Positions 8,020 to 17,105 of a stretch of 38,989 nucleotides of DNA are shown one piece after another. This stretch comes from Alphaproteobacteria bacterium (GTDB taxonomy: Bacteria > Pseudomonadota > Alphaproteobacteria > UBA6615): contig JAPUHN010000229.1 of assembly GCA_027297685.1 (NCBI GenBank), positions 1 through 38,989 of the forward strand, given 5' to 3'. A model generated the notes under the pieces. It worked only from the letters and a program-made list of their open reading frames with translations, did no database searches and was not told where the DNA came from. The position numbers and the translations under genes are program-made. The number at the start of each line of letters is the position of its first letter. Within the stretch, counting starts at the first letter, position 1.

Positions 8020-9891
8020 TCAAATGCCGTAATACCACGGCGCAACGAGGCTGAAGGTTAGCCACACGATTATCAGCAACGGCGTACCGACGCGTACAAA
8101 GTCGGCGAATCGATAGTTGCCCGGCGCCATTACCAGCAAATTGGTCTGATAACCGATCGGCGACGCGAACGAACAGTTGGCCGCGAACACCACGGCGACC
8201 ACGAAGGCCTCCGGCGGTACATTCAGGCCGTGCGCGATACTAACTGCGATCGGCGTGAACAATACCGCCGTCGCCTTCGTGCTGATGAGGTTTGCCAACA
8301 CCGCCACCAGCAGGAAAAACGCCGACAACACGACCGCCGGCGCAGCATCGCCCACGGCGGCTAGCATGGCGTCGGCCAAAAACTGTGCGCCCCCAGTCGC
8401 CTGAAGCGATACCCCAAGAGCAAGCGCCGCGGCGATCATCATGACAATGGTACGGTCGATCGCCCGGGCAGCTTGGCGGATATTCAAGACGCCGGTCGCC
8501 AACATCAATCCGGCGCCGCACAACGATGCCACCGCAATGGGAACGATGCCGGATGCCGCGGTGGCAATCACAGCCGCAAAAATCAACAATGTGCGTCGCG
8601 CGTGGTGCACTGCCGGAATATCAATGGCTGTCCATTCGACGAGCAGGATATCGGAATTGCCGCGCAACGCATCGATGTCTTCCTGGCGACCCTGCAACAG
8701 CAAAACGTCGCCCGGCTCGAGCCGTATTTCGGTGACCCTCGCGCGGATCATCTGCGACCGGCGTTGAATACCCAGTGCGACGCAATGGTATTGATAGCGA
8801 AAGCCGATCTGATCGAGATCCCGGCCGACCATCCGCGAGTCGGGTGTGATCATCGCCTCGGCGAGTACCTGATTGCCGACTTGCCAGCGTTGATGACCTT
8901 CTTCCGATTCAAACCGCTCCCAGTCCTGTCCCAGTTCGGGATGAAATTGAGCCGGTTCCCCCTTTAATGCCTCGGTCAACGCCGGCCGCGTGGCCGCCAC
9001 GACAATAGTATCGCCGGGCAATATCTGGAAACTGTCGTCGAAGGGGGCGCTGAAGAGCAAGCCTTCGCGGACAATGACGCGGAGCGTCATGTCCTTTAGA
9101 TCCGGGAAGAACCCGCCAACCGGCTTCATGCCGTCGAGTTTGGAACCTTCGTATACGTTTATTTCCGCCATGAACTGGCGGCCGCCGCCGGCGACGGCGC
9201 TGGTCAGAAGCGCGCGATCGGGCAACAGATGGCTGGCAAAAAAGATGACGTACAGCACGCCGACGAGCGCCAGGATGACACCAGGAACAAAAAATTGAAA
9301 AAAGCTGAATCCAGCTTCGCCGAGTCCCACCAGGGCGCCCGACACGAGAAGGTTCGTGCTCGAACCGATGAGCGTGGTCATGCCGCCGAGAATGGCGGCG
9401 AACGACAATGACATCAGGAGTTTCGACGAGGGCTGGCCAAGCCGGTCGGCCAGGGCTTGCATGATGGGAATGAAAATAACGACAACCGGCGTGTTGTTCA
9501 TAAATCCGCTAACGGCGAGCACCGCGATGAACGCGATTCCCGGCGCCACTGCCACGTGCCCCCGTCCATATCGAAACAGCAACCCGGCGCCGGCCTCGAG
9601 CACGCCGGTGCGTGCCAAGCCCGCGCCCATAACCAGCAGGGCCACCACGGTGAGCAACGCGGGATTGGCGAACCCCGCCAATAGGATCTCCGGTCCGAGC
9701 AGATTTTTACCGTCGGCGCCGATGACGGGATTGAAATGAAATAGCAACAGCAGGGCGCAAAGGATACCCAGCGACGTCAGCTCCAGCGTCACGCGCTCGG
9801 CGGCGTATAAGACCAACGCCGCCAGAATAACAGCGAAGGTTGCCCACATTCCAAACTCCGCCGGGCTCAACCCGGCGTCGATTACCGTCAT
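8020..9891 (-). CDS. SLC13-family permease with two RCK_C domains
   Basis: This is an inner-membrane transporter of about 623 residues in the divalent anion/sodium symporter (SLC13, CitT-like) superfamily. It has an N-terminal hydrophobic half with NTPVVVIFIPIMQ and GSSTNLLVSG. A hydrophilic centre of about 190 residues contains two TrkA-C/RCK_C-like repeats (SKLDGMKP..DLKDMTLRVIV and SRMVGRDLDQIGFR..LEPGDVLLLQG). The C-terminal half has ISTKATAVLFTP and SPIGYQTNLLVM. The repeated T/S-N-L segments mark the ion and substrate sites. Family members carry sulfate, phosphate-like or dicarboxylate anions; the substrate here cannot be assigned. I chose the ATG at 9891. A TTG at 9921 would add ten residues and is possible. 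Confidence 0.85.
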   Translation of the reverse strand: MTVIDAGLSPAEFGMWATFAVILAALVLYAAERVTLELTSLGILCALLLLFHFNPVIGADGKNLLGPEILLAGFANPALLTVVALLVMGAGLARTGVLEAGAGLLFRYGRGHVAVAPGIAFIAVLAVSGFMNNTPVVVIFIPIMQALADRLGQPSSKLLMSLSFAAILGGMTTLIGSSTNLLVSGALVGLGEAGFSFFQFFVPGVILALVGVLYVIFFASHLLPDRALLTSAVAGGGRQFMAEINVYEGSKLDGMKPVGGFFPDLKDMTLRVIVREGLLFSAPFDDSFQILPGDTIVVAATRPALTEALKGEPAQFHPELGQDWERFESEEGHQRWQVGNQVLAEAMITPDSRMVGRDLDQIGFRYQYHCVALGIQRRSQMIRARVTEIRLEPGDVLLLQGRQEDIDALRGNSDILLVEWTAIDIPAVHHARRTLLIFAAVIATAASGIVPIAVASLCGAGLMLATGVLNIRQAARAIDRTIVMMIAAALALGVSLQATGGAQFLADAMLAAVGDAAPAVVLSAFFLLVAVLANLISTKATAVLFTPIAVSIAHGLNVPPEAFVVAVVFAANCSFASPIGYQTNLLVMAPGNYRFADFVRVGTPLLIIVWLTFSLVAPWYYGI

Positions 9892-9970
9892 TACGCTATG
9901 ACCGCCAGTAAGTTGCTTCAATCGCCATTATTACCACGCGCCGGCAAAACGCGAATACGCTACGCCGCGC

Positions 9971-10426
9971 CTAATCTTCTTCGTCGGGGCGTCGTTTGAG
10001 AAAAATGATCGCGGTGAAGGTGGCGACAATTTCGGTGTCATTGCGCACGGTGTAGGCAAACTGGACGATTCCGCGATCCGGCTTGCTGCGTGATACACGG
10101 GTGTCGGCCACTTCGACTGTGGTGTGCAATACATCGCCGGGGCGTACCGGCGCCAACCATCTTATGTTGCGCAGACCCGGCCCGCCCAGGCCGGTCCCCT
10201 CTTGTTGGCCCGTGCGCAACCATTGTCCCGCAGCAATCGCAATCGTTTGAAAGCCGCTGGCGATCAAGCCGCCGTAAATCGACTTCTCCGCCGCCGCCTT
10301 GTCGGTATGGAGGGGCTGCGGATCGTATTTTTCCGCGAACGCGATTATTTCGCTTTCGCTCAAAACCACCGGCTCGGTGGTGAACCGCTGACCGACATAA
10401 AATTCCTCAAGATATAAACCAGGCAT
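9971..10426 (-). CDS. MaoC-like (R)-specific enoyl-CoA hydratase, copy 1
   Basis: This 151-residue single hot-dog domain protein of the MaoC dehydratase family typically acts on acyl-CoA thioesters. The hydratase-type motif is YDPQPLHTD, placing the putative catalytic Asp at 35 and His at 40 with the family's D-x4-H spacing. YGGLIASGFQT forms the following glycine-rich helix start. The usual Asn of the DxNPxH motif is Gln here, so catalytic activity is likely but not certain. It is a close paralogue of the gene 39 nt upstream (10466-10915), with which it is probably co-transcribed. The ATG start gives an N-terminus (MPGLYLEEFYVGQ) that aligns with the paralogue. Confidence 0.85.
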   Translation of the reverse strand: MPGLYLEEFYVGQRFTTEPVVLSESEIIAFAEKYDPQPLHTDKAAAEKSIYGGLIASGFQTIAIAAGQWLRTGQQEGTGLGGPGLRNIRWLAPVRPGDVLHTTVEVADTRVSRSKPDRGIVQFAYTVRNDTEIVATFTAIIFLKRRPDEED

Positions 10427-10465
10427 AGGTTCGATCCGTTTACCGATTGGCGCAGGCAGGGCGCA

Positions 10466-10915
10466 TCACGCCGCCGGGCGGCGAAGCAAGAAAAAAGTGC
10501 TGACAAACCGGACGACTATGGTGTCGCCCGCCGCCATGTTGAATTGCACACGCAGTACGCCGCGGTCGGGTTTCGATTTGGACGGCCGTACCTCCAATAC
10601 CTCGACCGTCGTGTTCAACTCAGCGTCCGGACGCACCGGCGCCGGCCACTCGACATCGTCTGCCGCCGGTCCACCCAGGGAACTTTCGACGATATGTCCC
10701 AACCGGATGAACTGTCCGAACGCGACGGCAATGGTCTGCAAGCCGCTGGCTATCAACCCGCCATAAGGGCCCGTTTTCGCCGCCTCGGGATCGGTGTGAA
10801 ACGCCTGCGGGTCGTACAGCTGGGCGAATTCGATGATGTCGTCGGCATGCAACGTAACCGGCGCCGTCTCCATCACTTCACCGACTTTAAAGTCTTCTAG
10901 ATATCGTGTGGTCAT
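10466..10915 (-). CDS. MaoC-like (R)-specific enoyl-CoA hydratase, copy 2
   Basis: This 149-residue hot-dog protein is paralogous over its full length to the next gene downstream. Shared landmarks are YLEDFKVGE (YLEEFYVGQ in the paralogue), YDPQAFHTD with putative catalytic Asp35 and His40, YGGLIASGLQTIAVA and the late SKPDRGVLRVQF. Tandem copies of this kind can form a heterodimer or diverge in chain-length preference; which applies here is not visible. The products end in similar basic tails (FFLLRRP and IIFLKRRP). No acyl-CoA dehydrogenase or ligase gene is adjacent, so the pathway is unknown. Confidence 0.84.
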   Translation of the reverse strand: MTTRYLEDFKVGEVMETAPVTLHADDIIEFAQLYDPQAFHTDPEAAKTGPYGGLIASGLQTIAVAFGQFIRLGHIVESSLGGPAADDVEWPAPVRPDAELNTTVEVLEVRPSKSKPDRGVLRVQFNMAAGDTIVVRFVSTFFLLRRPAA

Positions 10916-10998: not shown

Positions 10999-11883
10999 TT
11001 AGGCGGCGCTGTCGCGCTGGATCTGGGCGGCTTCCCAGGCCAATAGGGTACGTTTTTGCTCGGGCGACCAGCGATAGCCGGTTATCGAACCGTCGCTGCG
11101 CAAAACGCGGTGACACGGGATGAGCCAGGAAACGGGATTGGCGGCGAGCGCGCTGGCGACCGCGCGCGCGGCCGTGGGCTTACCGATCCGCGACGCGAGG
11201 TCTGTATAGCTGGTGGTCGCCCCCATCGGGATGCGCAACAAGGCTTCCCATACTTTGAGCTGAAACGGCGTGGCGCGCAGCAGCAAGTGAATATTGCCGT
11301 GTCCGCCAAACGCCAGCTCGGCGTATTCCGCCGTCGCCGGCGTATCCCAGGTCAGCTTCGCGCCGCCGAAACTGCGCGCCAGATTTTCAAACGCCCGGGT
11401 GCGGTCTTGCCGACCCCCGAAGGCCAGACCGCAAACCCCGCGCTCCGACGCGACGATCAGACAGTCGCCGAACGGGCTGTCGTGCCAACCATAGCGAAGA
11501 TCGAGACCCTCGGCTTGGGACTTCCATTCGCCCGGCGTCAGCGCTTCGTGGCTTACGAACAAATCGTGCAATCGCCCCGGCCCGGACAAGCCAGCGTCGA
11601 ACGCGGCATCCAATACGCTGGCTGAGTCCGCCAGGCTGCGTTTGGCGTGTTCGAGGGTAAGAAATTGCACGTACTTCTTCGGGCTGACCCCGACATAGCG
11701 GGTAAACAGCCGCTGGAAATGGTGCGGACCCAGGCCGATCACCGCGGCGGTGTCCTCGAGCGAGGGTTGATCGACGTAATGCTCGCTGAGCCAGCGCAGA
11801 ACGCGCTCCATCCGTCGCATGGTGCGCGCGTCTTCGCCGGGCTCGAAGCCGATCGTCGGGGATATCTCTTGCTGAACCGTCAT
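10999..11883 (-). CDS. AraC-type HTH fused to O6-alkylguanine-DNA alkyltransferase (Ada-like, no AdaA domain)
   Basis: This 294-residue protein has two domains. Residues about 20-120 form an AraC-family helix-turn-helix (LEDTAAVIGLGPHHFQRLF, then GVSPKKYVQFL). Residues about 130-285 form a methylguanine methyltransferase with the acceptor Cys257 in IPCHRVLRSDGSITGY. It repairs O6-alkylguanine by suicidal transfer of the alkyl group to Cys257. Unlike E. coli Ada, it lacks the N-terminal zinc domain whose Cys accepts methyl from phosphotriesters and switches Ada into an activator. How it senses damage, if it does, is therefore open. The start ATG at 11883 lies 4 nt after the stop of the DUF1127 gene, suggesting co-transcription. 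Confidence 0.9.
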   Translation of the reverse strand: MTVQQEISPTIGFEPGEDARTMRRMERVLRWLSEHYVDQPSLEDTAAVIGLGPHHFQRLFTRYVGVSPKKYVQFLTLEHAKRSLADSASVLDAAFDAGLSGPGRLHDLFVSHEALTPGEWKSQAEGLDLRYGWHDSPFGDCLIVASERGVCGLAFGGRQDRTRAFENLARSFGGAKLTWDTPATAEYAELAFGGHGNIHLLLRATPFQLKVWEALLRIPMGATTSYTDLASRIGKPTAARAVASALAANPVSWLIPCHRVLRSDGSITGYRWSPEQKRTLLAWEAAQIQRDSAA

Positions 11884-12165: not shown

Positions 12166-12197
12166 TTTTTCAGTAAAATCTTTAAAATACTGAAAAA
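12166..12197 (+). promoter_or_regulatory. Perfect inverted repeat, candidate operator of the hyuAB-like operon
   Basis: TTTTTCAGTA (12166-12175) and TACTGAAAAA (12188-12197) form a perfect 10-bp inverted repeat with a 12-bp spacer. The half-sites are 22 bp apart, about two helical turns. A -10-like TAAAAT (12183-12188) lies between the arms. The repeat ends 24 bp before the start codon of the first gene. Its placement suggests repression by a dimeric regulator. The XRE-cupin protein encoded at the end of the same operon is the obvious candidate. Confidence 0.7.
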
Positions 12198-12221: not shown

Positions 12222-14324
12222 ATGTACACGCTCTCAGTCGATATCGGTGGCACTTTTACCGATTGCGTCGCAATCGACGAGGCCGATGGCCATGTGACCA
12301 CCCGCAAGGTGCCGACGACACAAGACGATTTGCAGCGCGGCGTATTTGCAGGGGTCGACCAGATAGCCAGCGATCTCGATCTTTCCACCCCTGCCCTGCT
12401 AAGCGATGTCAGCCGGTTTGTTCACGCCACAACGCAATCGAGCAACGCCGTAATCGCTGGCACGGGCGCCCGTACCGCCGTTCTCACCACGCGTGGCTTT
12501 GGCGACACCCTGTTGATCATGCGCGCGACCGGCCGCGTTGCCGGGCTGAGCGTTTTTGAGCGCCACCACTACCGAAATACCCAAAAACCGGTGCCAATGG
12601 TCGACGAACGCGATATTTTCGAGGTCAGCGAACGTGTCGATTATAAGGGTTTGGTCCTGGTCCCTCTCGACGACGACGAGATACGCGCGATTGCAAAGAA
12701 AATCGGCGCGGCTGGATACGAAGCGGTCGCCGTTTGTTTTTTGTTCTCCCATAAGAACCCCACCCACGAAGCCCGTACCGGTGAAATTCTGCGTGAAGTA
12801 TTGCCCGATTTTTACGTCTCGCTGTCGGCCGATGTCGCACCGGTCATCGGCGAATACGAACGCTCGGCAACGGCCATGTTCAACGCTTATGTGGGCGAGC
12901 TCATCGAAGGCTATCTGTCGCGCCTGGAAGGGTCGCTGGGCGATCGAGGGTTGGCGCAAAAACTGTTGATCGTTCAGGCTAATGGCGGCGTTGCGACAAC
13001 CGCCCAAACGGTCCCCATCATGACCGTGGAATCGGGGCCCGCCGCCGGCGTCGTCGGCGCCGCCCGACTGGCCAAGCAACTGGGCTTGCCCAATGTGATC
13101 GCCACCGACGTCGGCGGCACCACCTTCAAGGTCGCCGTCATCGCCGATGGCGTCTGGTCCTACAGCCGCGAAACGGTGCTCAATCAATACCAATTGCGCC
13201 TGCCGATGATCGATATCGCCTCGATCGGCGCCGGCGGCGGATCGATCGCCCGGATCGACAGCGGACGCCTGCGCGTCGGCCCGCGCAGCGCCGCGGCTGA
13301 CCCCGGACCCGCGTGCTACGGGCTCGGTGGCACCGAACCCACGGTCACCGACGCCGACGTCGTGCTCGGCTACATATCGCCCGACCGTTTCCTCGGCGGC
13401 GACATGCTGCTCGATCCCGCGCGCGCGCATAGCGCCATCCGCGAGCATATCGCCGAACCGCTGTTTGGCGGCGATGCGCTGGCGGCAGCAGCGGGGGTTC
13501 GCCGCGTGGTCGACAGCCAGATGGCCGATTTGATCCGCAAGACAACGCTGGAGCGCGGCCATGACACCCGCAACTTCGTGATGATGGCCTATGGCGGCGC
13601 CGGACCAACCCATGCCTGCTCTTACGGGCCTGAGTCCGGTTGCAGCGAGATAATCATCCCGGCCGTGGCGACGGTGCATTCGGCCTTCGGCGCGGCGATG
13701 ACCGATGTGCGTTTCAGCCTGCGCTACTCCGACCCGCTGGTGCTGCCGGTGCCCGCCGAAACGTTGGAGAAATTCTTTGCCGATATGGATGCGCAGGGCC
13801 GTGAGTTGCTACAAAACGCCGACATCTCGGACGCTAACATGACGTTCCATCGCTGGGTCGAGGCGCGCTACCGCCGCCAGGTACACACAGTGCGCGTTGC
13901 CGCTCCCAAGTTTATCGACGATGCGGGTATCGAGATGATCGCCGAGGCGTTCCACCGCGAATACGAGCGGTTGTTCGGTGTCGGCACCGGACTGACCGAC
14001 GCCGGCATTGAACTCATCAATTACGGCGTCGACGCGGTGGGTCAGGTGCAGAAACACGCCCCTCACCGCTTGGAGCCGCAGCGCGGGACGCTGGAACCGC
14101 GCTTGCGCCGGCAGGCCTATTGCGCCGTCCTAGGCGCGATGGTGGACACCCCGGTTTATGACGGCGTTAGCCTGGGCGCCGGCGCCGCCATCGATGGCCC
14201 CGCCGTCATCGAACAACCCGGTACCACCATCGTCCTGTCGACCGATCAAGCGGCGCTGATCGACGATTTCGGCCACACCCATATAACCGGCAGTGACAGC
14301 AAAGAAAGCGATCGCCATGCCTGA
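12222..14324 (+). CDS. HyuA-type subunit (hydantoinase A / 5-oxoprolinase / acetone carboxylase family)
   Basis: This 700-residue member of the hydantoinase A superfamily binds ATP and usually phosphorylates its amide, imide or carbonyl substrate (or bicarbonate) before hydrolysis or carboxylation. The N-terminal phosphate loop is D7IGGTFTD. A second actin-like loop is D296VGGTTFKVAV. VESGPAAGVVGA, GAGGGSIA and ADPGPACYGLGG are the classic family segments. YGGAGPTHAC follows in the last third. The length fits the N-methylhydantoinase/acetophenone carboxylase branch rather than the 1,250-residue fused 5-oxoprolinases. It overlaps the next gene by 8 nt. The exact substrate cannot be assigned; hydantoins, oxoproline-like lactams and ketones are all possible. 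Confidence 0.88.
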   Translation: MYTLSVDIGGTFTDCVAIDEADGHVTTRKVPTTQDDLQRGVFAGVDQIASDLDLSTPALLSDVSRFVHATTQSSNAVIAGTGARTAVLTTRGFGDTLLIMRATGRVAGLSVFERHHYRNTQKPVPMVDERDIFEVSERVDYKGLVLVPLDDDEIRAIAKKIGAAGYEAVAVCFLFSHKNPTHEARTGEILREVLPDFYVSLSADVAPVIGEYERSATAMFNAYVGELIEGYLSRLEGSLGDRGLAQKLLIVQANGGVATTAQTVPIMTVESGPAAGVVGAARLAKQLGLPNVIATDVGGTTFKVAVIADGVWSYSRETVLNQYQLRLPMIDIASIGAGGGSIARIDSGRLRVGPRSAAADPGPACYGLGGTEPTVTDADVVLGYISPDRFLGGDMLLDPARAHSAIREHIAEPLFGGDALAAAAGVRRVVDSQMADLIRKTTLERGHDTRNFVMMAYGGAGPTHACSYGPESGCSEIIIPAVATVHSAFGAAMTDVRFSLRYSDPLVLPVPAETLEKFFADMDAQGRELLQNADISDANMTFHRWVEARYRRQVHTVRVAAPKFIDDAGIEMIAEAFHREYERLFGVGTGLTDAGIELINYGVDAVGQVQKHAPHRLEPQRGTLEPRLRRQAYCAVLGAMVDTPVYDGVSLGAGAAIDGPAVIEQPGTTIVLSTDQAALIDDFGHTHITGSDSKESDRHA

Positions 14325-16506
14325 CTCGCCGTCACCGGTGCTCGACCCGGTTTCCTTCGAGGTTTTGAACCACCGCTTGCTGTGCATTGCCGAAGAAATG
14401 GGCATCCTCTACATGCGTTGTTCCGGTTCGAATGTTTTGATAACAGGCAACGACGCCGCCTCGGCGATCATGGACGCGCAAGGCGCTCTGGTCGCCGTCG
14501 GTCCCTACATCGTGACCCAGGGCAATGTGTTGCCGCTGATCGTACAAGCGACGATCGACAGCGCGACGCGTCACGGCGGCTTCGAGGACGGCGATATTTT
14601 CATCTGCAACGACCCCTATCTAGGCGCCATTCACGCCCCTGATTTCGCCACCGTGGCGCCGATATTCCACAACGGCGAACTGGTCGCCTGGGTCGGCGCG
14701 TCGGGCCACCAACTCGATACCGGCGGCATGGATCCCGGCGGCTTCTCGGTCAAGGCCGTGGATATTCACCAGGAAGGGTTGCGAATGCCGCCGATAAAAC
14801 TGGTCGAGCGCGGTGAAGTGCGCGGCGACATCCTCGACTGGATCATCAATCAGGTGCGCGACCCGCTGGTCGGCCTCGACGTCAAAGGGCAGATCGCCTG
14901 CCTGATGGCCGGTCGAGAACGCATCGACGAACTGATCGGACACTGGGGGGTCGAGACCTTCAAGGAGGCGATGGCGCGCTCGGTCGCATTCGCCGCCGAC
15001 AAGCTGGGCGCCCGCCTCGACGACCTGCCCGACGGCAAATGGCGTGAAGTGCAATATATCGACCATGATGGGCACGAATCGCGCATCTATCAGATCGTCT
15101 GCACCCTGACCAAACGCGGCCAGCACATGACTTTCGATTTTACCGGCACCAGCGCCAACGCGCGCGGTCTTATCAATTGCACCTATTCCGGCTTACAGGC
15201 CGCCGTCCTCTCGGCGGTCTACATCAATCTGTGCTGGGATATTCCGTGGAACCGCGGTGTGCGCGACTGTCTCGACATTATCTCCGAAGAGGGGACGGTA
15301 AATAATTGCGCCTACCCGGCGCCGTGCGCGATGGCAACCATTTCAGGGGTCATCGTGACCATCGACGCGGCCTGGCGCTGTCTGTCGCAAATGCTGTTAG
15401 CCAGCGAGACCTACCGCGACGAGGCGATGGCCGTCTGGTCGGGCACCTCGTTAGCGCCGATCTTCGCCGGCACCAGCCAACATGGCTTTCCCTTCGCCGC
15501 CACCGAGATGAGCCATTTCGGCGGCGGCGGCGGCGCGCGAACCTATGCCGACGGCGTCGATACCGCGGGTATCGTGTTCAACACCACACCCAACATGCCC
15601 AACATCGAAGACCAGGAAAGCGAATATCCGGTGCTTTACCTGTATCGCCGCCACCTCCGCGATTCGGGTGGACCCGGACGGTTCCGCGGCGGCCGTTCCG
15701 GCGAATTGGCCTACACGGTTTATGACGCGCCCAATGACGATCTGGTGGGCCTGTTCGCCGGCACCGGGGCGGAAATGCCGAACGGGATCGGCATCGCCGG
15801 TGGTATGCCGGGCAACGCCATTCGTATCGGACGCTTTCTCGGCACCGACGTACCCAAACGCCTGGCCAATGGCACGCCGCTCCCCGAGGCACTTGAGGAA
15901 ATCAACGGCCGCCACGAGATTATGGCCAGCAAGCACGAACGCGGGCCGATCGACGCCGGCGACGTGTGGCACCATTGCTGGCAGGCGGGGGGAGGCTACG
16001 GCGACCCGCTGCTGCGCGACAGCGGGGCATGCGCCCGCGACGTGGCGCGCGGGGCGGTGTCGCGCGAGGCCGCCCATGATATCTACGGCATTGTGCTGAC
16101 CGACGAGGGCGCCGTTGATGTCGGGTCGACCGATGCGCAACGCCAGAAAATTCGGCAAGACCGGCTGGCTGCCGCGGTCGCCATCGACCCGGGCGATGCG
16201 GTGGTATCCTTCCCGGGCGCGGGGCAACTGCAATTCGGCGATGCGCTGCTTGTGGATGGCGATGCCGACTCGGTCGCCTGCGCCCAATGCGGACAGCGCC
16301 ACTGCGGCACCCACGACAATCTGCTCGATCATTTGCGTGAAGTACGCTCACCGCTCACCGCCGCCGGGCCGGTGCGCGGCGAAGACTACGATGTCGGGCG
16401 GTTCCACCTGCGCCAGCTCTGCTGCGCCAATTGCGGTGCCCTGGTCGATGTTCAAGTGGCGCTCGAAGGTGCGCCACGGCCGTTCATGCAGATCGGCACC
16501 CCATGA
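14317..16506 (+). CDS. HyuB-type subunit fused to an acetone-carboxylase-gamma-like Cys-rich domain
   Basis: This 729-residue protein is the partner of the upstream HyuA subunit. Residues about 10-580 are a hydantoinase B domain with CNDPYLGAIHAPDFATVAPI, GHQLDTGGMDPGG and FDFTGTSANARGLIN. A Gly-rich C-terminal part includes GGPGRFRGGRSGEL and AGGGYGDPL. About 150 further residues form an unusual tail with Cys655-x2-Cys658, Cys663 and a second knuckle, Cys703-x2-Cys706, in CCANCGALVDVQV. Two CxxC knuckles about 45 residues apart, the later one followed by a (T/A)L(L/V)-x-V strand, resemble the small gamma subunit of acetone carboxylase as I recall it. This suggests a gamma-like zinc domain fused in cis. 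The ATG at 14317 is preferred over a GTG at 14293; both overlap hyuA. Confidence 0.85.
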   Translation: MPDSPSPVLDPVSFEVLNHRLLCIAEEMGILYMRCSGSNVLITGNDAASAIMDAQGALVAVGPYIVTQGNVLPLIVQATIDSATRHGGFEDGDIFICNDPYLGAIHAPDFATVAPIFHNGELVAWVGASGHQLDTGGMDPGGFSVKAVDIHQEGLRMPPIKLVERGEVRGDILDWIINQVRDPLVGLDVKGQIACLMAGRERIDELIGHWGVETFKEAMARSVAFAADKLGARLDDLPDGKWREVQYIDHDGHESRIYQIVCTLTKRGQHMTFDFTGTSANARGLINCTYSGLQAAVLSAVYINLCWDIPWNRGVRDCLDIISEEGTVNNCAYPAPCAMATISGVIVTIDAAWRCLSQMLLASETYRDEAMAVWSGTSLAPIFAGTSQHGFPFAATEMSHFGGGGGARTYADGVDTAGIVFNTTPNMPNIEDQESEYPVLYLYRRHLRDSGGPGRFRGGRSGELAYTVYDAPNDDLVGLFAGTGAEMPNGIGIAGGMPGNAIRIGRFLGTDVPKRLANGTPLPEALEEINGRHEIMASKHERGPIDAGDVWHHCWQAGGGYGDPLLRDSGACARDVARGAVSREAAHDIYGIVLTDEGAVDVGSTDAQRQKIRQDRLAAAVAIDPGDAVVSFPGAGQLQFGDALLVDGDADSVACAQCGQRHCGTHDNLLDHLREVRSPLTAAGPVRGEDYDVGRFHLRQLCCANCGALVDVQVALEGAPRPFMQIGTP

Positions 16507-17105
16507 GTACGGCGAGCGCAAATCACCCCGAGAGCGAAACCGGCGCGGAGATGGCGAGCCTGGGCGCGAGCATCCGCACCGGCCGCCGCGACGCCGGGCT
16601 AAAGCTACGCGAAGTGGCGGCAGCCACAGGCCTATCGATAAGTTACCTGAGCCAGATCGAACGCGATCTGTTGACGCCGTCGGTCGACGCCCTGCGGCGG
16701 ATCGCCAACGCCGTCGACATTTCCGCCGGCGCCTTGGCGTTTGCCGCCGGATCGCGCCGCGGCAAGGCAAGTGTGAGCATTGTCCGGCGGGAGGCGCGAA
16801 AACGCGTCGCCTTTGCCGACGCCAACATCGCCTACGAGCTACTGACACCGGACGTCCAGGGCCGCGTTTCCGTGTTGGCCCTAAGCGTTCCGCCGGGCGC
16901 GGAAAGCGGCGCTGCCTTCACCCATCCCGGTGAGGATATCGTCATCGTCCAGCACGGCGCGCTGATGGTCGAAGTGGGTGGGCTATGGCACGAGATCCTG
17001 GCCGGCGACAGCATCCGCTTCAGCAGCGAAATACCGCACCGTTGGCGCAACGGTGCAAACGCACCAGCGCAAGCCCTTTGGATCAGCTCGCCACCTTGGC
17101 TGTAG
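16503..17105 (+). CDS. XRE-cupin transcriptional regulator
   Basis: This 200-residue regulator has two domains. The helix-turn-helix spans about residues 20-75 (LREVAAATGLSISYLSQIERD, then PSVDALRRIANAV). A C-terminal cupin spans about 115-195 (THPGEDIVIVQHGALMVEVG and AGDSIRFSSEIPHRWRN). Such proteins bind short inverted repeats as dimers and sense a small-molecule ligand, often a substrate of the neighbouring genes. The ATG at 16503 overlaps the stop of the HyuB-type gene by 4 nt (ATGA), so the regulator is made from the same transcript, and autoregulation through the repeat at 12166-12197 is plausible. An in-frame extension upstream to 16431 lies wholly within hyuB and is rejected. Confidence 0.88.
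   Translation: MSTASANHPESETGAEMASLGASIRTGRRDAGLKLREVAAATGLSISYLSQIERDLLTPSVDALRRIANAVDISAGALAFAAGSRRGKASVSIVRREARKRVAFADANIAYELLTPDVQGRVSVLALSVPPGAESGAAFTHPGEDIVIVQHGALMVEVGGLWHEILAGDSIRFSSEIPHRWRNGANAPAQALWISSPPWL

Follow-up and report, generated by a model that had tools for sequence, protein, structure and literature searches.

A HyuA-HyuB gene pair with a predicted acetone carboxylase gamma-type zinc domain fused in cis to HyuB

The gamma protein of acetone (Acx) and acetophenone (Apc) carboxylases is known so far as a separate subunit. Its zinc site is regarded as structural in both enzymes, being remote from the active site (PMC5214803, PMC5543143), and the authors of the Acx structure called the role of gamma unclear (PMC5543143). 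The published gamma cysteines are 22/25/75/78 in Apc and 74/76/124/127 in Acx (PMC5214803, PMC5543143). The metal residues are Asp65/His123/Asp126/His148 in Apc-beta and Asp41/His99/Asp102/His124 in the caprolactamase subunit CapB (PMC5214803, PMC8453981), and a tunnel of ~40 Å has been described for the superfamily (PMC8453981, PMC5543143). Across this superfamily, genes receive the blanket annotation hydantoinase or 5-oxoprolinase.

The window analyzed here, a stretch of 38,989 nucleotides, spans one entire contig (G000:C145) from a 3.84-Mb assembly with 97.85% completeness. It contains a HyuA-HyuB pair, the features of which are as follows.

12166 to 12197, no strand: perfect inverted repeat TTTTTCAGTA-12 nt-TACTGAAAAA upstream of hyuA, candidate operator
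12222 to 14324, plus strand: hyuA, ATP-binding (ASKHA-type) subunit, 700 aa (Pfam PF05378, PF01968, and PF19278)
14317 to 16506, plus strand: hyuB-gamma, ATG at 14317, metal-site subunit with a C-terminal gamma-type zinc domain, 729 aa (PF02538)
14452 to 14709, plus strand: predicted HyuB active-site metal tetrad D46, H106, D109, and H131, from alignment with Apc and CapB
16153 to 16503, plus strand: gamma-like tail, residues 613 to 729, with one predicted Zn site, from hhalign, a reverse genome search, and AlphaFold2 with Foldseek
16503 to 17105, plus strand: XRE/cupin transcription regulator, PuuR-like (Pfam HTH_3 and Cupin_2; NCBIfam PuuR-like)

Both ORFs of the pair are intact and were confirmed at the positions first assigned to them. 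HyuA has the three Pfam domains Hydant_A_N, Hydantoinase_A, and Hydant_A_C, and residues 10 to 564 of HyuB match Hydantoinase_B (E value of 5e-119). The gene overlaps are also as first described: hyuA and hyuB share 8 nt at the stop of the former and the start of the latter, and the regulator ATG (16503) overlaps the hyuB stop. HyuB is, as predicted, about 150 residues longer than a plain HyuB (729 aa versus 581 aa in CapB). A scan of genome contigs identified 18 full-length relatives with 66 to 74% identity, originating from Alpha- and Betaproteobacteria and from one Acidimicrobiaceae MAG, all of which have the same C-terminal extension.

Homologues of the XRE/cupin regulator were found near hyuAB in 12 of the 18 relatives. 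The inverted repeat has perfect 10-bp arms and is located 25 to 56 nt upstream of hyuA, and TTTCAG/CTGAAA half-sites are found in the ~100 nt preceding hyuA in many of the relatives (L002, L003, L006, L008, L009, L010, L012, L013, and L015). Judged from its sequence, the repeat is a candidate operator of the XRE/cupin regulator. No sigma-70-type promoter-like site was found at the locus. Divergent from hyuA, an ORF at 10999 to 11883 (minus strand) encodes a fusion of an AraC-type HTH and an O6-methylguanine methyltransferase DNA-binding domain (Ada-like), and the region from 8020 to 10915 (minus strand) encodes a CitMHS-type transporter with a TrkA_C domain, adjoining two tandem MaoC-like dehydratase genes.

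The pair has the features that define the hydantoinase/ketone-carboxylase superfamily, namely Hydantoinase_A and Hydantoinase_B domains, ATP motifs, and an Asp-His-Asp-His metal set. In HyuA, the motif table of which was compared against Acx, Apc, and Cap, the phosphate motifs are DIGGTFTD (residues 7 to 14) and DVGGT (residues 296 to 300), and the adenosine motif PGPACYG starts at residue 353. HyuB residues D46, H106, D109, and H131 are conserved in the 19 aligned HyuBs, except for one ambiguous X in L004. The best PDB matches were the acetophenone carboxylase subunits ApcD for HyuB (E value of 6e-56) and ApcC for HyuA (E value of 6e-115); N-methylhydantoinase, caprolactamase, and acetone carboxylase ranked next. 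The same genome has eleven Hydantoinase_B loci; in one of them (L066, contig C56), HyuA is followed by two tandem HyuB genes grouping near CapB.

All cysteine positions given for the tail in the original prediction were right. C655, C658, C703, and C706 are invariant in the 19 aligned members (the window protein and its 18 relatives). The fifth cysteine, C663, is replaced by Gly in L010, L012, L013, L016, and L017, so that a five-Cys site was rejected and the pattern is a four-Cys pair, C-x2-C ... C-x2-C. The spacing of these four residues, two knuckles ~45 to 50 residues apart, is nearly equal to that of the published Apc and Acx gamma sets.

The Pfam gamma model PF08882 (Acetone_carb_G) scored 12.5 bits on residues 637 to 729 (E value of 0.17), below its gathering cut-off of 21, and therefore a standard Pfam scan would miss the gamma tail; the best E value among the 19 tail members was 0.0014. 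This absence of a Pfam call, together with the similar scores of short zinc-ribbon models, could be read as pointing to an unrelated zinc ribbon, with the two Cys knuckles as its sole resemblance to gamma. However, profile-profile comparison against a gamma reference set gave a different picture. The set was made of stand-alone gamma proteins from genomes of the class, and it represents real gammas, because its profile recovers the PDB gamma chains 5m45_C, 5svb_C, and 5l9w_C (E values of 4e-44 to 3e-29). The tail profile matched this reference with 98% probability (hhalign score of 76.9 over 89 columns), whereas the best of 100 column shuffles reached 13% (score of 23.7) and the reversed profile 0.1%. 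The tail also matched, at 97.9%, the HyuB tails of other clades (L040/L059, L042/L061, and L046/L060), intermediates that pass the PF08882 cut-off and carry the domain at the same C-terminal position. Used to search 385 genomes of the class in reverse, the tail profile recovered gamma proteins from other organisms (G007, G025, and G157) as well as a fused HyuB from G027.

The predicted fold points in the same direction. When the AlphaFold2 model of the tail (pLDDT of 88) was compared with 350,542 PDB chains by Foldseek, the top five matches were all gamma chains (5l9w_C and those of 5svb, 5svc, and 5m45), with a probability of 1.00, E values of 8e-4 to 6e-3, and TM scores of 0.50 to 0.62 on the query; the next match had a probability of 0.21 and an E value of 0.28. 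By sequence, the tail profile found gamma among the PDB chains only at E values of 1.3 to 1.7, so a sequence search against the PDB alone is insufficient for the gamma call. The full-length model was only moderate (pLDDT of 68), and the geometry of the tail relative to the core was therefore not interpreted. The homology of the tail to the gamma subunit of acetone/acetophenone carboxylase, first proposed together with a profile and structure comparison to check it, is thus well supported by controlled profile matching, the reverse genome search, the predicted fold, and the conserved Cys spacing, and the reading as an unrelated zinc ribbon is largely refuted; we consider it hardly credible.

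It had also been predicted that no separate gamma gene lies beside hyuAB. This holds for the locus and can be extended to the whole assembly (97.85% complete), in which PF08882 has no matches at E values of ≤10 and the tail profile finds only the window locus. As the window tail itself also stays under the PF08882 search, a second gamma of equal divergence might in principle be overlooked.

Contrary to what might have been assumed at first, this HyuB is not the only fusion of its kind. HyuB-gamma fusions adjoining HyuA were also found in Niveispirillum, haloarchaea, Rhodococcus, and Mycobacterium. These records are labeled only "hydantoinase B/oxoprolinase family protein," while separate haloarchaeal gammas are labeled as such by PGAP. 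Since Pfam calls gamma in some of the fused cousins, the architecture is already present in databases, and the window family represents a divergent example of it that has escaped annotation; a gamma fusion was not described in the open-access literature searched. Two haloarchaeal plasmids (L130 and L133) carry HyuA-HyuB-gamma operons among fatty-acid-type CoA genes, and their gammas are annotated as acetone carboxylase subunit gamma, yet these operons fall outside the Acx clade. In L051, a gamma homologue (8421 to 8942, minus strand) beside an Acx-like HyuB has its zinc cysteines replaced (KSTSGFEF ... FYDPIDGTL) and, by its sequence, is presumably zinc free; the same contig has an Apc-like cluster with its own Cys-bearing gamma.

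The HyuB trees were constructed from the HyuB core alone, with the tail removed. The careful tree of 54 rows, which included six added plasmid-borne cousins, separates 37 gamma-bearing rows (Acx, Apc, separate-gamma, fused, and the window family) from 17 gamma-less ones (hydantoinase, oxoprolinase, caprolactamase, and unnamed relatives) by one branch with a support of 100/99, and a smaller careful tree gave the same split (100/100); some long rows were left out of the careful trees. Gamma presence needs one change in the 54-row tree, and the fused and separate states need at least four, so fusion is recurrent, made or undone at least four times. For instance, the alphaproteobacterial separate-gamma clade has as its sister a fused HyuB from haloarchaea (L131), whereas the haloarchaeal separate-gamma HyuBs L130 and L133 are placed among fused ones. 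In a larger, quick HyuB tree, the fused L062, on a long branch, lies at the base of the gamma-less side. L111 was considered as a gamma-less member and rejected, its tail holding CPHC...CAQC. In 190 genomes of the class, gamma accompanies, in cis or in trans, every HyuB with a score of more than 262 bits against the window protein, and the HyuBs sampled below 251 bits carry none.

The HyuA phylogeny proposed in the original prediction likewise placed the gamma-less enzymes in one clade (100/98) with the window family outside it, the gamma-bearing lineages being unresolved. In AU tests, forcing the window family together with the gamma-less clade was not rejected at the 5% level (P values of 0.25 and 0.063). 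The HyuB and HyuA trees bear on the possibility that the locus is an ordinary 5-oxoprolinase/hydantoinase pair in which the tail is a normal feature of the group, as the PGAP name of the cousins, "hydantoinase B/oxoprolinase family protein," would imply. However, the oxoprolinase, hydantoinase, and caprolactamase HyuBs form their own tail-less clade (100/100 and 100/99), the corresponding HyuAs likewise group by themselves, and neither the tail nor the gamma profile matches the 1,215-aa fused oxoprolinase-like protein that the same genome encodes elsewhere. We therefore regard an ordinary pair as quite improbable. A grouping with plain 5-oxoprolinases had been named at the outset as the result that would speak against the prediction; it was not seen, because HyuB does not lie inside the plain oxoprolinases or hydantoinases.

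The gene neighborhoods of the gamma-bearing pairs give mixed evidence on the substrate. An FAH-family hydrolase gene is located close downstream of hyuB in 11 of the 18 relatives and an SDR gene near hyuAB in 9 of them; several relatives have TRAP genes and a Liv-type ABC transporter, and DUF3830 is also among the neighbors. The complete operon is present in Reyranella massiliensis and R. soli (L003 and L005). These FAH, SDR, and transporter genes are absent from the window, and no amidase or carbamoylase neighbor was found in the annotated loci of the window family. Enzymes of the FAH family typically cleave C-C bonds adjacent to a 1,3-dicarbonyl, and this chemistry makes a coherent route conceivable, from an alcohol to a ketone (SDR), to a beta-keto acid (HyuAB-gamma), and to two acids (FAH). 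The haloarchaeal and actinobacterial gamma-bearing pairs have AMP-binding ligases, acyl-CoA dehydrogenases, enoyl-CoA hydratase, CoA transferase, thiolase, HMG-CoA lyase, and acetoacetate decarboxylase nearby, a context as expected for the steps after carboxylation of a ketone to a beta-keto acid. One relative (L017, 3 to 9652) combines a pair lacking gamma with a gamma-bearing one in a tandem cluster, HyuA-HyuB(plain)-SDR-DUF3830-HyuA-HyuB(gamma-fused).

The alphaproteobacterial separate-gamma HyuAB operons (L055, L057, L058, and L063), which form a sister clade, have a different context. An isochorismatase-family hydrolase is encoded downstream in L055, L058, and L063; in L058, an XRE/cupin gene lies between the operon and this hydrolase gene, and a BMP-type ABC transporter follows. 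The isochorismatase family includes N-carbamoyl-amide hydrolases, and its presence together with the BMP-type transporter suggests amide or imide substrates, which fits the opening of a cyclic amide ring followed by amide cleavage. The window pair could thus be a gamma-bearing ATP-dependent hydrolase of a cyclic amide (lactam, hydantoin, or imide), in which the HyuA kinase and the HyuB metal site serve as in a carboxylase, with water in place of an enolate attacking the activated carbonyl, and with gamma retained as a structural domain that is no predictor of carboxylation. The presence of just one HyuA gene, a feature shared with two-gene Hyd clusters (PMC5214803), would agree with this, as would the Liv-type and TRAP transporters, which suggest a polar substrate. 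By NCBIfam score, HyuA is also nearest to CapA (523.6 bits, versus 411.5 for ApcC), both scores being under the curated cut-offs. On the other hand, the hydrolases of the superfamily have been reported without gamma (PMC5214803) and form a separate clade in both the HyuB and HyuA trees, and the annotated loci of the window family have FAH and SDR genes instead of an amidase or carbamoylase. Weighing the CoA-gene, FAH, and SDR context against the isochorismatase neighbors, the CapA score, and a window without FAH, SDR, or transporter genes, we favor ketone-type carboxylation, to which we give about an even chance, over cyclic-amide hydrolysis, a serious contender whose chances we put somewhat short of even.

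On the favored reading, the window pair would be a two-polypeptide ATP-dependent enzyme of the ketone carboxylase type, with gamma fused in cis to a HyuB of the Acx-alpha/Apc-beta type. HyuA would phosphorylate the substrate carbonyl and/or bicarbonate; because its PGP motif is kept, whereas it is lost (RVG) in Acx, an ADP-forming kinase step is likelier than an AMP-forming one. The activated species would then travel through the HyuA-HyuB tunnel to a divalent metal at D46/H106/D109/H131 of HyuB, where carboxylation alpha to the ketone would most likely yield a beta-keto acid, which in the relatives could pass to the FAH-family hydrolase. The tail would hold one structural Zn and brace the contact between HyuB and HyuA, taking no part in the chemistry, and the fusion in cis would fix the gamma:HyuB stoichiometry. 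A bolder extension, which we offer as speculative and on balance unlikely, is that gamma in cis or in trans is the hallmark of a large, for the most part uncharacterized side of the HyuAB enzymes, in Proteobacteria, Actinobacteria, and haloarchaea, that carboxylates ketones or other enolizable carbonyls. The window family would in that case be a compact carboxylase made of two polypeptides and acting on a new, polar substrate, with an FAH-family hydrolase splitting the resulting beta-keto acid.

In the sample tested, a gamma domain fused to HyuB and missed by annotation pipelines sets the ketone-carboxylase side of the HyuB tree apart from that of the hydrolases at a single branch. If gamma predicts the chemistry, it would provide a simple sequence rule to tell ATP-dependent carboxylases from amide hydrolases; if it does not, gamma has another role. 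That role becomes testable here, as the tail can be deleted from a single polypeptide.

Among the described systems, ApcABCDE of A. aromaticum (PDB 5l9w) is the best PDB match for HyuB, HyuA, and the tail (Foldseek rank 1), and it shares with the window pair the Asp-His-Asp-His metal set and the gamma Cys spacing. However, Apc has two HyuA-type subunits, a separate gamma, and an epsilon subunit, whereas the window encodes a single HyuA, and its gamma is in cis. The pair also scores far below the Apc NCBIfam models (411.5 bits for ApcC and 217.9 for ApcD, with cut-offs of 1500), and it is thus not an Apc by subunit number, gamma arrangement, or model score.

AcxABC of X. autotrophicus (PDB 5svb, 5svc, and 5m45) resembles the window in having one HyuA-type and one HyuB-type protein and a gamma Zn domain, in the order A, B, and gamma, as well as a HyuB metal site, and the gamma chains of 5svb and 5m45 match the fold of the tail. 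In Acx, however, gamma is encoded by a separate gene and has a longer N terminus, Glu89 takes the place of Asp46 in the metal site (PMC8453981), and HyuA is AMP forming, with RVG for the PGP adenosine motif, whereas the window HyuA keeps PGPACYG. The three genes acxABC, the separate gamma, and the HyuA without PGP that characterize Acx are therefore not those of the window pair.

CapAB and N-methylhydantoinase (PDB 6yra and 7hk5) have the same HyuA-plus-HyuB layout, and the DxGGTxTD, DxGGT, and PGP motifs are intact in CapA as in the window HyuA. These enzymes lack the gamma domain and fall in another clade of the trees. CapB Tyr136, a proposed acid/base (PMC8453981), corresponds to Phe143 in the window family; this position was rejected as a discriminator between hydrolases and carboxylases, since several residues occur there across both groups. 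With its gamma tail, its position outside the Hyd clade in both trees, and scores of 523.6 and 181.5 bits against the caprolactamase NCBIfam models (cut-offs of 1000), the pair differs from the hydantoinases, oxoprolinases, and caprolactamases.

The fusions of Niveispirillum, haloarchaea, Rhodococcus, and Mycobacterium are like the window protein in carrying a C-terminal CxxC...CxxC gamma tail on HyuB, but they share only ~30 to 35% whole-protein identity with it and have other gene neighbors, and some of them pass the Pfam gamma cut-off, whereas the window family does not. The window pair marks an uncharacterized branch of a widespread HyuAB enzyme family.
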